Positions 1,166-18,970 of a stretch of 20,376 bases of DNA are shown in pieces. The translations under genes were made by a program, and so were the position numbers. Below the pieces are notes generated by a model. That model was not told where the DNA came from. It was given only the letters and a program-made list of their open reading frames with translations, and did no database searches. Positions within the stretch are counted from its first letter, which is position 1, and each line of letters begins with the position of its first letter. This DNA comes from a virus, in the IMG/VR virus record IMGVR_UViG_3300042691_012552, positions 1 to 20,376 of that record, one strand, 5' to 3'.

Positions 1166-2791
1166 ATGGCTTTACTAGACTATTTTCCATCTCAATTTAA
1201 TCCACTTATACAACAAGTGGAATTACTCAATAAAATTGATGAAGCTTTTAATGATGGTTATAAATTTGTAATTTGTTGTGCTCCTACTGGTAGCGGAAAA
1301 TCATTTTTATCCAAGACATTAGCAAATATTTCTTCTGAACCGAGTCAAGAATTCAAAAATCTTGTAGAGAACGGAAGCGCATTCAGATTAGATACTTACG
1401 GTAATTATACAAAAGAACAAGAATGTTTAGATGAAAAACCTTTTGGTGTATTTGCTTTGACTATTACTAAAAGTTTACAAGATCAGTATACCGAGTTATT
1501 CGAAGATTCAAAAGCCTTAAAAGGTAAAACAAATTACATGTGTAATGTTGATCCTGAATATGATGTAGATGTTGCTCCTTGTTTATTCACACCCGGATTG
1601 AAAGAAAAATGTATATTAAACAATACATGTTCTTATTACAATGCAAGGAAAGAAATGTTAACCAATAAATTTGGGGTGCTTAATTATAGCATGTTTCTTT
1701 CTATGCCTGAACATGTCAGGAATAGGCAATATATTATATGCGATGAAGCTTCTGAGGTTGAAGATGAATTAGTAAAAAGATTTAGTCGTTCTTTACCATA
1801 TAAGTTGTTAAAAAGATTAGGATATTCTCCGAAAGAAATCCCTGTTGAGAATTACAGTAAATTTAAAATTTGGTTAGATAATTTAATCATAAAAATCGGA
1901 GATGAAGTGGATGCATTGAAGCGTCTTTTAAATAAAAAGAAAGGCAAAGCCGAATTCGATTCGAATATACAAAGATTTAAATTATTCAATAATTTGCTTC
2001 GTCAAATGCAAGGAACAATGGACACATGGAAAGAATGTGAATATGTTATTGAACATAACTTAGACGGTATCACATTAAAACCTTTTCGTGTAGATAATTT
2101 AGCAAAACATATATTTTCACATGCTGATAAAATTTTATTAATGTCAGCAACTATTATTGATCCTGAAAATTTTGCAAAAACTTTAGGAATTAAAAAATTC
2201 AAATACATTGAAGTAGATTCAACATTTGATCCTAAAAATGCTCCAATATTTGCATCTACAGGAAATAAAATAAATTATAAAAACTTAAAAGAAAAGTTAC
2301 CTTCAATTAAGGAAACAGTAGAAAAAATCTGTTTAGCACATAAAAACGAAAAAGGTATTATCCACACTCATACCAACGAAATTACTCAATATTTAAAAGA
2401 TAATATTGATGATCCTAGATTTTTGTTTCGTATTGATGGAATGGATAACGAAAAGATTTTGAAGTTACATTTCGAATCTAAAGAACCAACAATATTAGTA
2501 AGTCCATCAATGGCATACGGAGTGGATTTAAAAGAGGATTTAGCTAGGTTTCAAGTTGTAATCAAAGCTGCCTACCTTCCTTTGTACGATGAAAGGATTA
2601 AAAGGCTTTTTAAAGAAGATAAGGATTGGTATGTAAATAAGATGTTAAACAATCTTATTCAAGCTTGTGGTAGAGGAGTTAGATCGAAACAGGACAAATG
2701 TGTAACCTATATATTAGACGGGACTATTTCTGATACAGTAATTAGATCAGCATATAAATTACCAAAATACTTTTTAAAGAGATTTGTTTAA
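1166..2791 (+). CDS. DinG/XPD-like superfamily 2 helicase with Fe-S cysteines
   Basis: 541 residues. Walker A is APTGSGKS (39-46), the Walker B/DEAH-like box is DEAS (193-196), SAT (motif III) is at 327-329, and motif VI is QACGRGVRS (499-507). Between Walker A and DEAS there are four cysteines, C126, C139, C149 and C155, followed by YYNAR. This is the place and spacing where DinG, XPD and Rad3 helicases bind a 4Fe-4S cluster. Such enzymes unwind DNA 5' to 3' using ATP and can remove R-loops or D-loops. The role in the phage is inferred to be replication, recombination or clearing transcription conflicts. The ATG at 1166 gives MALLDYFPSQFNPLIQQ, a plausible Q-motif-like N-terminus. No promoter motif and no clear ribosome site precede it, and it follows the upstream stop by 12 nt, suggesting coupled translation. 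Confidence 0.85.
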   Translation: MALLDYFPSQFNPLIQQVELLNKIDEAFNDGYKFVICCAPTGSGKSFLSKTLANISSEPSQEFKNLVENGSAFRLDTYGNYTKEQECLDEKPFGVFALTITKSLQDQYTELFEDSKALKGKTNYMCNVDPEYDVDVAPCLFTPGLKEKCILNNTCSYYNARKEMLTNKFGVLNYSMFLSMPEHVRNRQYIICDEASEVEDELVKRFSRSLPYKLLKRLGYSPKEIPVENYSKFKIWLDNLIIKIGDEVDALKRLLNKKKGKAEFDSNIQRFKLFNNLLRQMQGTMDTWKECEYVIEHNLDGITLKPFRVDNLAKHIFSHADKILLMSATIIDPENFAKTLGIKKFKYIEVDSTFDPKNAPIFASTGNKINYKNLKEKLPSIKETVEKICLAHKNEKGIIHTHTNEITQYLKDNIDDPRFLFRIDGMDNEKILKLHFESKEPTILVSPSMAYGVDLKEDLARFQVVIKAAYLPLYDERIKRLFKEDKDWYVNKMLNNLIQACGRGVRSKQDKCVTYILDGTISDTVIRSAYKLPKYFLKRFV

Positions 2792-2800
2792 GAACATGGT

Positions 2801-2834
2801 TAGCTACCAATATTACTAAATATATTAGTAGCTA
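2801..2834 (+). promoter_or_regulatory. Imperfect palindrome around the gp15 late-like promoter
   Basis: TAGCTAC (2801-2807) pairs with GTAGCTA (2828-2834). After one mismatch, AATAT (2809-2813) pairs with ATATT (2822-2826), leaving an 8-nt loop. CTAAATA (2816-2822) lies in the middle. The motif-to-ATG gap here is 11 nt, unlike the usual 5. The right arm includes the A of the start codon. No T-run follows, so a terminator is unlikely; an operator is possible. Confidence 0.45.
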
Positions 2835-3958
2835 TGTATAATAAAACTTTTAATTTTGAAATTCGTGATCTATTGACCCAATTTATAGCGGCAATGGATG
2901 ATGTAGTTATATCTCGCTATAATAAAGATAGAGAAGAAAAGGAAAGAATAAAGGTTAGATATATACATGCTCCAAAAGAAAGAGTTTTTTATGATCTGGT
3001 AAATAAGGCACAAAACATTACATTGCCAGTTATATCAGTCAATATGACTGGAATTCAAAGAGACGAATCTAGAGTCTTTAATAAGATTGATGGTTTTTAT
3101 GAACCAGTAAGAAGGGAAATGCATGGTAAGCTCACTACTCATATAGCGATGCCAATTCCTGTTAATATTAATGTTTCTGTAAGTATAATAACAAATTATC
3201 AATCTGATTTAGAGCAAATAATATCAAATTTTGTTCCTTATTCTAATCCATATATAATTATATGTTGGAAAACTCCAGAATCTTTTAGAATTAATAATAT
3301 AGAAGAAATAAGATCTGAAGTATTATGGGATGGTTCAATTCAAGTAGAATATCCCACTGATATAGAATCTTCTACTAAACCTAGATTTGCAGGAAATACA
3401 ACTTTTACTATTAAAGGTTGGTTATTTCCTGCTGCTGAAGATGATTATTATAAAAATATATATTTTGTTAATAATCATTTTAGATTAACAGAAAAATATA
3501 ATTTGAATTATGATTCATATTCAACTGATTTGTCTGCTGAAAATGGATTGACTGTTTCAGAAACTATTTCTATTTCTGGAGCACCATTAATAACAAATCT
3601 CTATATTTATAGAGATAATGGTCCGTTCGAATTATCTGGTACTAATGTAGTTATTGAAAATAGAAATACATTTATACTTTTAGGACAAAACTTTCAATAT
3701 ACCACAAATGTATTAGTCAGTAGCGATTCTAATACACTTTATACTAATTTAACATCATTATCTTATACGTATTACCCAAAATTAAGTGGATTTATTTTAC
3801 CAGAACAAAATTACAAGATAATGAATAAAAATTCCATTCATATAAATCTACCTAGATTTACTGAAAATGCAAATATAAATTTTGTTGTTACGAATCCTAT
3901 AGGTTGGAAAGATACTAATTCAATTGATACACAAATGTACTATATTTCAAGTGTATAG
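2834..3958 (+). CDS. 15: Tail sheath stabiliser and completion protein (T4 gp15-like)
   Basis: 374 residues; T4 gp15 is about 270. The first 220 residues follow the gp15 pattern: an aromatic start (MYNKTFNFEIRDL), a KERIKVRYIHAPKER stretch matching 'IRVPITYASKE', then LPVISVNMTGIQRDE, PIPVNINVSVSIITNY, the helix DLEQIISNFVPYSNPYI, and the closing TFTIKGWLFPA matching T4 'TFEVNGWMYPP'. gp15 forms a hexamer at the head-proximal end of the tail, caps the sheath and tube, and joins the tail to the neck. The C-terminal 150 residues are an extension with no counterpart I recognise; it looks beta-rich (an immunoglobulin-like or decoration domain is possible). The gene is followed by the portal gene. 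Confidence 0.75.
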   Translation: MYNKTFNFEIRDLLTQFIAAMDDVVISRYNKDREEKERIKVRYIHAPKERVFYDLVNKAQNITLPVISVNMTGIQRDESRVFNKIDGFYEPVRREMHGKLTTHIAMPIPVNINVSVSIITNYQSDLEQIISNFVPYSNPYIIICWKTPESFRINNIEEIRSEVLWDGSIQVEYPTDIESSTKPRFAGNTTFTIKGWLFPAAEDDYYKNIYFVNNHFRLTEKYNLNYDSYSTDLSAENGLTVSETISISGAPLITNLYIYRDNGPFELSGTNVVIENRNTFILLGQNFQYTTNVLVSSDSNTLYTNLTSLSYTYYPKLSGFILPEQNYKIMNKNSIHINLPRFTENANINFVVTNPIGWKDTNSIDTQMYYISSV

Positions 3959-9278: not shown

Positions 9279-9950
9279 ATGTCATTAAAATTGATCGTAG
9301 AAAAACCTGCTCCAGAAGAAGAGTTTGAATATATTCTTGAAGAAAAAGATAGAAATAGCCCTGCAACTCTTTATATCAAAGGTCCATACATGATGGCAGA
9401 AAACTTCAATCGAAACAATAGATTATATCGTTTAGAAGAAATGGTTAAAGAAGTGGATCGATATACTAGTGAAATGATAAAAACAAATCGTGCATTAGGA
9501 ACATTAAATCACGAAAGCAGCGCAGAAGTTAATTTAGATAGAGTCTGTCATATAGTAACTGAATTAAAACAAGACGGTAATATTTTTCATGGAAAAAGTA
9601 AAGTATTAACTACTCCATGTGGACAAATAGTTCGCTCATTAATTCAAGACGGTGTAAAAGTGGGAATGAGTTCAAGGGCATTAGGACAATTAGAAGAAGC
9701 ATCTGGTGGTAAAAATATTGTAAAGGATTTAAGATTAATTTCAATAGATTGTGTTGCTGATCCTTCATTTCCTAAAGCTTTCGTAAATGGTATTTTAGAA
9801 TCTAAACAATGGGTTCTTGGTGAGTCAGGTCAATTTGAAGAAGTCTATGATGGATTTGAAAAACAAATTTCAAAGTTACCAAAAGTTCAAGTAGAAGCTT
9901 ATCTTAAAGAATGTATTTTGGATTTCTTAAATAAAATTAAATTTAACTAA
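9279..9950 (+). CDS. 21: Prohead core protease (T4 gp21-like)
   Basis: 223 residues, near the T4 gp21 length of about 212. Key features are YIKGPYMMAENFNRNNRLY at 32-50 (substrate strand region), the histidine motif TLNHESSAEVN with H78, and GVKVGMSSRALG at 125-136 with the nucleophile Ser131 or Ser132. This matches herpes-like assembly proteases of T4 type. The enzyme sits in the prohead core, cleaves scaffold and capsid proteins after L-x-E or I-x-E, and then degrades itself. Possible substrates in this window carry L-x-E-[A/T] near their N-termini: gp22, gp23 and several small basic or acidic proteins. The gene has its own late-like motif 5 nt before the ATG and is followed, in T4-like order, by a small core protein, gp22 and gp23. 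Confidence 0.88.
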   Translation: MSLKLIVEKPAPEEEFEYILEEKDRNSPATLYIKGPYMMAENFNRNNRLYRLEEMVKEVDRYTSEMIKTNRALGTLNHESSAEVNLDRVCHIVTELKQDGNIFHGKSKVLTTPCGQIVRSLIQDGVKVGMSSRALGQLEEASGGKNIVKDLRLISIDCVADPSFPKAFVNGILESKQWVLGESGQFEEVYDGFEKQISKLPKVQVEAYLKECILDFLNKIKFN

Positions 9951-12896: not shown

Positions 12897-13058
12897 ATGA
12901 TTAAACAATTTTTAACAGAAACACTTTTGGGTGATTTCTTATTTGAAAATGATATATGGACTGTTTGCTTAATTGAGGGTGGTGATGTTCGTCATTTTAG
13001 ATCGGATCAAATTAAGATCCATAAAAATGGTACATTTGATATTATTAAATTGAATTAA
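12897..13058 (+). CDS. Small hypothetical protein, 53 aa
   Basis: MIKQFLTETLLGDFLFEND... to ...DIIKLN. Not recognised. It fills the gap between the gp23 terminator and the homing endonuclease, and a TTGACA/TATAAA pair lies just upstream. Its first ten residues (MIKQFLTET) resemble the short amphipathic N-terminus of T4 internal proteins, with L-T-E-T at 6-9 as a possible gp21 site. The rest has a Trp and a strand-like end (QIKIHKNGTFDIIKL). The stop overlaps that of the convergent endonuclease gene by 3 bp (TTAA at 13055-13058). Coding status is supported by a clean frame, compact junction and upstream promoter, but the length is short. Confidence 0.5.
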   Translation: MIKQFLTETLLGDFLFENDIWTVCLIEGGDVRHFRSDQIKIHKNGTFDIIKLN

Positions 13059-13780
13059 TTACCAATCGTATTTAATTTTTCTATTTTATATCCTTTAGAT
13101 GATTTAATAATATTATTAGAACATCTATTTAGATTGGAAGCTTCTAATTTATTTTGTTTTGCGTATTCAGTTAAATTATCCACTATTATTTTATTTCCAT
13201 GTGGATCAATTATTAAAAACTGTCCATTATATTTTGTTTTCTTGTTTTCTATTTTTAAGTCATATTTATTTTTTACCCAGATATATTTTTTTGGTTTATT
13301 TATAATAGAACTTATATTATTTGGTTTACAATTTAATGTTTTAGCTATATCTTTTACTTTAACATTTTTATTATATAAATTAAACATTAAAATTACTTCA
13401 TCATCCGTAAATTTGCGTTGAGATTCGAAATGATTAATTAAATGAGATTCATCGAATTTTAACCCTAATGTAGAAGATGCTGTTTTACATATATTGTATT
13501 TCGGAACTAATGTATCTAAAAAATATTGTTCCTTTTCAATACATTTATCTTTTGAACATATTTCTAAAATTGAAAATATAAAATCTATATTTTTGTATTT
13601 ATTATAACTATGTTGAAGAAATTTACATGGATTTTTATTTATATGTAGTAATCTTCTATGATTTAAAAATCTTTTATTAAAACTAATAGAAGCACTTCCT
13701 ATATAAAATTCATTATTAACAGGATTTTCTATTTTATAAATTCCTGTTTGTTTTAAATTTTCCTCTAATGTTATTAACAT
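13055..13780 (-). CDS. GIY-YIG homing endonuclease (free-standing)
   Basis: 241 residues. The GIY-YIG nuclease domain spans residues 10-100: GIY (13-15), YIG (26-28), catalytic Arg37 (FNKRFLNH) and Glu84 in IEKEQYFLD, then PKYNIC. These align with I-TevI, including R27 and E75 of that enzyme. Residues 120-170 contain a helix-turn-helix-like repeat (VKVKDIAKTLNCKPNNISSIIN). The C-terminus (residues 187-236, DPHGNKIIVDNLTEYAKQNKLEASNLNRC...KGYKI) resembles the I-TevI C-terminal DNA-binding motif. Such enzymes cut a nearby allele and spread themselves by recombination. It begins 1 nt after the basic protein gene on the same strand, without its own promoter motif, and is very AT-rich, consistent with a mobile insertion. 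No intron is apparent around it. Confidence 0.88.
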   Translation of the reverse strand: MLITLEENLKQTGIYKIENPVNNEFYIGSASISFNKRFLNHRRLLHINKNPCKFLQHSYNKYKNIDFIFSILEICSKDKCIEKEQYFLDTLVPKYNICKTASSTLGLKFDESHLINHFESQRKFTDDEVILMFNLYNKNVKVKDIAKTLNCKPNNISSIINKPKKYIWVKNKYDLKIENKKTKYNGQFLIIDPHGNKIIVDNLTEYAKQNKLEASNLNRCSNNIIKSSKGYKIEKLNTIGN

Positions 13781-17502: not shown

Positions 17503-18303
17503 CTATTTCGTCTCATTTGCTGTCAAAAGCTTTCTGTATGAAAGCCATTGTGAAAAATTATCATTAATTCCATATGATGCTTTAGCGCAGTGTTCAAATG
17601 GACTATAATGACCTTCGGCCAATAATTGATCGTGTAAAGTATAGTCCTTATCATAATTAATTTCTCCATCAAAAGTTTTATATGATACTCTTGCTGCTCT
17701 TGCAGTAGCCACTTTTAATTTTTCTTTCAAAGAAAGTCCATCCGAAAATTTATCCCCGAATGGGATGTGCCATTCACCCATTTCTTTTTTAACTGGAATA
17801 CTATTATGCATGGCATCCTGCATTTTGTATGCTAAATCTCTAATCTCTGGTTGTGCTGCACTGTGGGCACGAAGTTTGAAAAAGTTATCATATTCAGTTG
17901 CAGTTACTAAAGTAGTGATATGAAAAAATGGTTCCATCAAACGATTAGCAACTTGTTTATGGATTCCTAAATCATTTAATTTCTTAGCATGAACAACAGC
18001 AGAATCTCTTGCTTCATTCCAAATTTGCATTGCTTTAATTTTAGTTGCTTCATCAACTTCATTATCAGCCTGCATTCCTTTTTGGTTTGCACCCCAATGA
18101 ATAGGTAATGCTGGATCAGTCAATACATCTTCAATGAATTTAGAAATAGGAATAGCTCTACTAGAAGCCGCATTTCTAGAAAACATTCTATGAGTCATTA
18201 ATTCAGAATGAATAAAACGAGGATAAGTTAAAACGAAACTTGTGATTCGTTTATCACGAATAGAAGTGTTAACACTATCAGCAACAATTTTTACAGTAAT
18301 CAT
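17503..18303 (-). CDS. thyX: ThyX-like FAD-dependent thymidylate synthase, rearranged motif order
   Basis: 266 residues. ThyX makes dTMP from dUMP using methylene-tetrahydrofolate and FAD. The signature 'RHRxxSxNExSxR' appears as THRMFSRNAASSR (37-49), with the first Arg and the Glu replaced. A region with FFKLRAHSAAQPEIRDLA (140-157) matches the canonical 'F..lR....AQ.EIR..A' motif. Then, near the C-terminus, ARAARVSY...HDQLLAEGHYSPFEHCA (198-236) matches the segment that opens canonical ThyX. The order is thus permuted compared with bacterial ThyX. I recall similar phage proteins annotated as ThyX. It lies 37 nt downstream of clpP on the same strand, with no late motif of its own, so it is likely a second cistron. 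It would supply dTMP for this AT-rich genome. Confidence 0.75.
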   Translation of the reverse strand: MITVKIVADSVNTSIRDKRITSFVLTYPRFIHSELMTHRMFSRNAASSRAIPISKFIEDVLTDPALPIHWGANQKGMQADNEVDEATKIKAMQIWNEARDSAVVHAKKLNDLGIHKQVANRLMEPFFHITTLVTATEYDNFFKLRAHSAAQPEIRDLAYKMQDAMHNSIPVKKEMGEWHIPFGDKFSDGLSLKEKLKVATARAARVSYKTFDGEINYDKDYTLHDQLLAEGHYSPFEHCAKASYGINDNFSQWLSYRKLLTANETK

Positions 18304-18340
18304 TCTTAAATGATACCATAAATTTAACTTTTGTAAAGTA

Positions 18341-18970
18341 TTAAATTACACCATCAACTAACCCATATTTCAAACAAGTAGCAGCATCAAACCAAAGATC
18401 TTTTTTAAGAATACCATCTAATTCTTTCATAGGAATTTTTGTATATTCTTTATATAAAGATTTAATACAAGTCATTAATCTACGATTGTTTTCTTGTTCA
18501 TCTTCTAATCTTTCAAATGTACCTGCACAAATTGAACTAAGTTGATGAATAAGCATGAATCCATTTTTACCTATAAATCTCTTTTTCCCTGCTATACTAA
18601 TTAACGTAGCAGCACTTGCTGCTGCTCCTTCAATATAAGTATATACTTTTGTTCTAAGTGATCTTATAACATCTACTGTAGCTAATCCAGCAAAAATCTC
18701 TCCACCATAACTATTAATTCTTAAATGTATAGTAGGATCGTAATCGGGATCATTTAGAGTAATTTTAGCATGTTGCATTCTAATATCTAATTCTCTTAAA
18801 ATTCTGTTTAATTCAGCGCATGTTACTGAAGATATATCAGCATAAAAATTCACTGAATTATCCAGCATTTTAATAGAACTTTGAGGCATTAATAAATCTG
18901 AAGTTGGTGGAGTTGATGGTACTTCTTTGATATCATCATCCTCTTCTAGCGATCCCCAATATTTTTTCAT
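18341..18970 (-). CDS. clpP: ClpP-like serine protease
   Basis: 209 residues, close to bacterial ClpP. The fold landmarks are LRINSYGGEIFAG (83-95), the nucleophile region GAAASAATL with Ser119, FMLIHQLSS with His142, and KKDLWFDAATCLKYGLVDGVI with Asp191, so the Ser-His-Asp triad is complete. The first 35 residues (MKKYWGSLEEDDDIKEVPSTPP) are acidic and probably flexible. ClpP forms barrel-shaped tetradecamers with a Clp ATPase. Here it could redirect host proteolysis or process phage proteins. The phage also has gp21, so a capsid-maturation role is less likely. The ATG is 6 nt after a reverse ATAAATA. thyX follows on the same strand. Confidence 0.9.
   Translation of the reverse strand: MKKYWGSLEEDDDIKEVPSTPPTSDLLMPQSSIKMLDNSVNFYADISSVTCAELNRILRELDIRMQHAKITLNDPDYDPTIHLRINSYGGEIFAGLATVDVIRSLRTKVYTYIEGAAASAATLISIAGKKRFIGKNGFMLIHQLSSICAGTFERLEDEQENNRRLMTCIKSLYKEYTKIPMKELDGILKKDLWFDAATCLKYGLVDGVI

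Follow-up and report, generated by a model that had tools for sequence, protein, structure and literature searches.

A predicted flavin-dependent thymidylate synthase with a circularly permuted chain in a T4-like virus, and its relatives among phages and bacteria

The stretch of DNA considered here, referred to below as the window, comprises 20376 bases of metagenomic virus sequence; it originates from a T4-like myovirus and carries genes for the portal protein gp20, a prohead protease, the major capsid protein gp23, a head-tail adaptor and a tail sheath stabiliser. In Table 1, we have listed the features of a thyX gene in this fragment, which encodes a protein of 266 amino acids and for which the first-pass annotation of the window had named no strand. 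The gene comes after a gene for a ClpP-like protease on the same strand and converges on the structural genes. The end of what is apparently the same ClpP-like gene also lies upstream of thyX in loci L001-L007 and L015; the prohead protease gene is separate from it, and a free-standing GIY-YIG endonuclease gene is situated downstream of the capsid gene. The number of promoter-like sites near thyX is at chance level in a promoter scan, and the site listed in Table 1 is noteworthy only for its conservation, as TTTACA-16/17-TGxTATCAT (or a close variant) is also found ~6 bases before the thyX ATG in the close viral relatives L001, L003, L004, L006 and L015. Transcription of thyX may start at a promoter of its own and yield a leaderless mRNA. 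No antibiotic gene cluster was found within the window.

Table 1. Location of the thyX gene, its sequence elements and selected neighbours in the window (Tm, T. maritima ThyX)
Feature	Position	Strand	Details and basis
Permuted thyX gene, 266 amino acids	17503..18303	minus	ORF; ATG at 18303, stop 17505-17503
New N-terminal segment, residues 1-19, strand 3-12	18247..18303	minus	AlphaFold secondary structure
Piece B, residues 20-179 (canonical positions 61-208)	17767..18246	minus	46.1 bits, HMM of 22 canonical ThyX
ThyX signature THRMFSRNAASSR, residues 37-49	18157..18195	minus	profile match 21-54 = Tm 62-95
LRAHSAAQPEI segment, residues 144-154, R145 = Tm R174	17842..17874	minus	alignment to Tm ThyX
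Linker, residues 180-198, in the place and of the length of canonical positions 1-21	17710..17766	minus	re-ordered profile scoring
Piece A, residues 199-240 (canonical positions 22-61)	17584..17709	minus	22.5 bits, canonical ThyX HMM
C-terminal tail, residues 241-266, family motif NFxGWxQYR	17506..17583	minus	AlphaFold secondary structure and conservation
Promoter-like site TTTACA-16-TATCAT, TG ahead of the -10	18310..18337	minus	6 bases before the ATG
Gene for a ClpP-like protease, immediately upstream of thyX	18341-18970	minus
Prohead protease gene	9279-9950
GIY-YIG endonuclease gene	13055-13780	minus

Membership of the 266-residue protein in the ThyX superfamily is clear. Pfam PF02511 (Thy1) matches it with E=1.8e-18 and 67.4 bits against a cut-off of 24.8, in two stretches, of which residues 22-170 correspond to profile positions 60-190 and a C-terminal piece to positions 13-57; PF00303 (ThyA) gives no match, PF02511 alone being found. 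The NCBIfam equivalog model for ThyX, TIGR02170, scores 76.4 bits, under its cut-off of 87.9. PHROG 85, a phage thymidylate synthase family whose profile name is silent on permutation, matches residues 2-263 (2.4e-71), and since the aligned part of its 866 profile positions is confined to 410-702, canonical and permuted chains may have been merged in it. The family is annotated as ThyX, as the first-pass annotation had noted for related phage proteins.

In ThyX, the motif ARVS...H-x-[ST]-PFEH stands ahead of RHRxxSxxxxSxR, and in the window protein this order is reversed. A circular permutation had already been proposed from the succession of an RHR-like signature, an AQxEIR segment and ARVSY...HYSPFEH, and the succession is confirmed and the permutation supported, with small corrections of position: the signature remains at residues 37-49, AQPEIR (previously placed at about 152) occupies 150-155, and the last segment, previously given as 201-235, resolves into ARVSY at 204-208 and HYSPFEH at 232-238. 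A profile of 22 canonical ThyX (from T. maritima, cyanobacteria and other bacteria, and phages) recognises the protein as two pieces whose canonical ranges meet at position 61. Piece B, which contains a strand, the RHR-type helix and loop and the LRxxxxAQxEI region, is the second part of the normal enzyme; piece A, which includes H232 and E237 as the equivalents of Tm H53 and E58, is the first part, and a profile-profile comparison matches it to Tm 21-63 with a probability of 97.6%. The maximum score in 2000 shuffles of the protein was 8.4 bits, as compared to the scores for the two pieces in Table 1. By a strict test, 124 of 136 viral and bacterial relatives have both pieces in the swapped order, and in most of the remaining 12 both are present, one of them being short or weak.

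When the columns of the canonical profile are ordered 60-208 and then 1-61, the window protein aligns as one stretch with 56.0 bits (family mean, 40.8). The canonical order yields 25.8 bits, a segment transposition that keeps strand 1 in place 26.7 and the permuted profile deprived of its 1-21 spacer 27.2. Only the circular order with the spacer, among the models tried, gave a contiguous alignment of both pieces, and circular permutation is supported by these comparisons as the best of the tested models. Judged by sequence, the chain starts just past the H-x-S-P-F-E-H motif (canonical position ~61/62), runs on to the canonical C-terminal region and continues through a ~20-residue spacer into the ARVSY...SPFEH helix pair and a new tail. 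AlphaFold assigns to this tail the remainder of a strand (240-247), a second strand (250-255) and a helix (256-265), and its residues N249 and R257 are at least 95% conserved. A PDB profile alignment ran through the tail, which by eye bears a likeness to the RHR strand and helix. The idea that NFxGWxQYR is a leftover second copy of that canonical strand and helix, marking a permutation that went by way of duplication, is nevertheless unsupported and no more than a lead, as the tail by itself resembles neither canonical ThyX nor the N-terminal copy in profile comparison and is modelled as strand-strand-helix.

Structure prediction, which the first-pass annotation had recommended together with phylogeny, gave a confident AlphaFold model of the window protein built on 56 relatives (pLDDT 93.5, pTM 0.90). 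In the PDB, ThyX and its relative PolB rank first, with a best E of 2.8e-6; the alignments are partial, often ~150 columns, because the sequence order differs. Against a viral model, A0A0B5A4Q6, the match reaches TM 0.94 over 271 columns. The protein is accordingly predicted by the model to have the ThyX fold, and relative to T. maritima ThyX (TM0449), with which it is homologous over positions 22-208, it has its parts swapped at 61/62 and an additional N-terminal strand as well as the NFxGWxQYR tail. PolB (4p5a, 4p5b) is catalogued as a UMP/dUMP methylase and its sequence matches the permuted profile by piece A only.

Many residues of canonical ThyX are retained, including the equivalents of Tm H53, H79, R80, S88, R90, N169 and R174. 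The five that are invariant in the 22 canonical sequences (H53, H79, S88, R90 and R174) appear as H232, H38, S47, R49 and R145, and in the 136 permuted relatives, for which phage and bacterial sequences were pooled, the equivalents of H53, S88, R90 and R174 are conserved at 100% and that of H79 at 99%. Within the signature, H38, R39, S42, N44, S47 and R49 correspond to Tm H79, R80, S83, N85, S88 and R90 and are present in 98-100% of the same set, in which the positions of N85, Q75 (as E), T55 (as S) and E58 are also occupied. The counterpart of R147 is N120 or R121, depending on an uncertain shift in the alignment. Two losses in the signature that had been pointed out earlier are real, i.e., Thr37 at the position of Arg78 (Thr in 99% of the permuted family) and Ala45 at that of Glu86 (Ser or Ala in the permuted set), but of the 22 canonical ThyX, 14% also have Thr at position 78 and no more than 50% have Glu at position 86. 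A larger change had been overlooked: Tyr91, present in 100% of the canonical set, is replaced by Ala50 in the window protein and by Ala in 99% of the permuted family. Arg165 is likewise replaced by Thr, and both Ala for Tyr91 and Thr for Arg78 are also found in the bacterial members. Tyr91 is reported to be strictly conserved and critical for activity, its mutation reducing flavin oxidation ~1000-fold, and Arg78 to face the flavin N1 (PMC11940539). With both replaced, the catalytic machinery of the permuted proteins seems, from their sequences, to have been remodelled, and other residues would have to deal with the flavin anion and with the water that leaves. Candidates, on a purely speculative footing, are the family-specific conserved residues Thr37, Lys116, Asn120, Arg121, Trp178, His179, Asn249 and Arg257.

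The permuted form is widespread. Among 50,697 phage records in INPHARED, 1,023 match, 998 of them in a single stretch spanning ≥80% of the protein, and ICP1, PaP1 and rV5-like phages are among the carriers. With canonical T. maritima ThyX as the query, 2,078 records were retrieved (1,486 at ≥80% coverage), a set that may overlap with the former. Genomes in GTDB that encode it belong to Pseudanabaena, Eremiobacterota, Saccharibacteria and others. It also occurs in 149 plasmid records, 138 of them from Acinetobacter; the Acinetobacter plasmids listed, e.g., NZ_CP096896, are ~107-108 kb in size and are possibly phage-plasmids. The phylogeny of the homologues places the permuted family in a single clade (SH-aLRT 100) with one breakpoint, the deep position of which is unsure because its stem is very long. 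The window protein falls within an all-viral clade (support 100), and its close viral relatives are 70-88% identical to it and keep the invariant positions. The Pseudanabaena sequences group with a phage sequence, L021 (support 97), whose thyX adjoins a phage minor tail protein gene, and this grouping suggests that permuted thyX was exchanged between phage and Pseudanabaena, in either direction.

Genome content among relatives at ~50% identity to the window protein, many of them known from draft assemblies or MAGs, speaks to function. In the Pseudanabaena order, the permuted gene is present in 26 of 38 genomes, and in 24 of these 26 neither ThyA nor canonical ThyX was found, the exceptions being one genome with ThyA (G154) and one with canonical ThyX (G162). 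All 19 of the loci that were re-fetched, out of 26, were verified; in two of the genomes with the permuted form only, the contigs that bear the gene measure 4.53 and 4.73 Mb, close to the size of the whole assembly, and the neighbourhood of the Pseudanabaena gene at L091:4980-5801 is that of an ordinary chromosome, with genes for ABC transporters, an L,D-transpeptidase and an IMP dehydrogenase-like protein. Thymidine kinase (TK) was absent from all seven genomes of the Pseudanabaena group that were checked, and FolA was absent from five of seven, with weak partial matches in two. Pseudanabaena are photoautotrophs that are grown in mineral media and must therefore make dTMP. The 12 genomes of the order that lack the permuted gene comprise eight with canonical ThyX only, two with ThyA only, one with a partial ThyA-like match and one with none of these; the last (G171) and the genome with just a partial ThyA-like stretch, in a 515-residue ORF (G155), could reflect incomplete assembly or yet another route to dTMP. 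ThyA and canonical ThyX are also absent from 11 Eremiobacterota-type MAGs and from one complete Saccharibacteria genome that have the permuted form. In five Saccharibacteria-type loci, thyX is followed by genes for dCTP deaminase (dcd) and thymidylate kinase (tmk), i.e., dUMP supply, methylation and dTMP phosphorylation, and the cluster sits, where this is visible, between the genes for ribosomal proteins L1 and L10. A Nanosynbacter MAG (L121:1293-2201 and 2348-3292) has a permuted thyX directly followed by a full-length thyA, unrelated synthases side by side. On the viral side, ThyA was found in none of 28 records with the permuted gene, and in phage PaP1 this gene is two genes away from nrdB/nrdA. 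Replacement of ThyA without a need for FolA is thus seen in the bacterial relatives. From the patterns of replacement and the gene clusters we infer that permuted ThyX functions as a thymidylate synthase, and certain bacteria appear to rely on it alone for dTMP synthesis.

Taken together, the gene in the window is predicted to encode a circularly permuted flavin-dependent thymidylate synthase, a reading to which we would give a probability of roughly 0.87. Pieces A and B would pack as they do in ThyX, with the sites for FAD, dUMP and CH2-THF rebuilt at subunit interfaces; the enzyme would reduce FAD with NAD(P)H and convert dUMP to dTMP with the methylene of CH2-THF, and as THF would be released, no dihydrofolate reductase would be needed. 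For the phage, such an enzyme would supply dTMP for replication. It may be that one ancient permutation founded the family, that the family has moved between phages and bacteria, and that the permuted form became the resident thymidylate synthase of most Pseudanabaenales and of several Eremiobacterota and Saccharibacteria. A more far-reaching proposal seems to us evenly poised between right and wrong: that these proteins are a separate class of single origin, in which permutation is combined with a rewired active site that makes dTMP without Tyr91 or Arg78, two residues at present regarded as central to catalysis by ThyX. The class would be in circulation among phages and, in one cyanobacterial order at least, would have taken over from the thymidylate synthase of the cell, with phage-host transfer as a possible route.

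One alternative is that only the ARVSY...SPFEH helix pair moved to the C-terminus, canonical strand 1 having stayed where it was, so that there would be no true circular permutation. The model does have an N-terminal strand just ahead of the counterpart of canonical strand 2, and sequential structure alignments extend to ~200 columns in some cases, but no homology between this N-terminal strand and canonical strand 1 could be detected, canonical columns 1-20 placed in front add no bits beyond those of shuffled control columns, and the transposed order falls well below the circular one in score, all of which makes the relocation unlikely. An artefact of assembly or reading frame, conceivable for a metagenomic virus fragment, is already refuted by the same order in isolate phages (~1,000 records) and in genomes of bacteria, one of them complete and two represented by single contigs of chromosome size.

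It is also necessary to ask whether the reaction has changed, such that the family would consist of permuted enzymes with the ThyX fold that act, e.g., as dUMP hydroxymethylases or as UMP/dUMP methylases for modified nucleotides (the role of PolB in the biosynthesis of polyoxin), while dTMP would be the product of only some members. The loss of Tyr91 and Arg78, the high rank of PolB in the PDB comparison (TM-score 0.60, normalised by target length) and the commonness of DNA base modification in phages are all in keeping with this. We nonetheless regard a changed reaction as quite improbable, given that the permuted gene is the only thymidylate synthase gene found in many Pseudanabaenales genomes and is clustered with dcd and tmk elsewhere, that the members in those settings have the identical substitutions, and that no base-modification gene was recognised within the window. 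The missing canonical catalytic residues might alternatively mark the protein of this phage as an inactive or degenerate remnant of ThyX, a notion that has very little in its favour when the reading frame is open, the fold is predicted with confidence, the close viral relatives are as similar as stated above at retained invariant positions, and the losses are family-wide and not private to the window.

ThyX is a drug target, and its mechanism is disputed. If its job is indeed done by a permuted chain without Tyr91 or Arg78, the permuted family makes it possible to test directly which residues are needed for the chemistry. Numerous genes of phages and bacteria labelled "thymidylate synthase", which profiles match mainly via one piece, would then have a distinct architecture, and the bacterial genomes would hold a record of the replacement of an essential enzyme of DNA precursor synthesis by a form common to phages. 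In the open-access papers that were searched, we found no description of ThyX as a permuted protein, and an earlier description elsewhere is possible; in most of the other literature matches, as far as their titles and abstracts go, "permuted" refers to the phage genome, and the remaining contexts concern other proteins.

Tandem (fused) ThyX of ~500-557 residues occur in Acidobacteria, Opitutaceae and Cyanobacteria and have two ThyX copies per chain, an arrangement from which permutation by duplication could start. In the deep tree they stand apart from the permuted family, and the permuted HMM does not match them; tandem ThyX is thus unsupported as an intermediate, although the tree, with its very long branches, leaves some probability for it. 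The fused ORFs that we recorded (L208-L215, 499-557 residues) are from an Acidipila MAG, an Opitutaceae MAG and genomes of the cyanobacterial phylum, and most of them have two copies. A different kind of interruption is seen in a close viral relative of the window protein (L010:3621-5720), in which an intein with a Pfam intein splicing domain interrupts the active-site motif between SRNAAS and SRAIP; long ORFs in which canonical ThyX is split near the corresponding point (profile 85/86) occur in several cyanobacterial cases.
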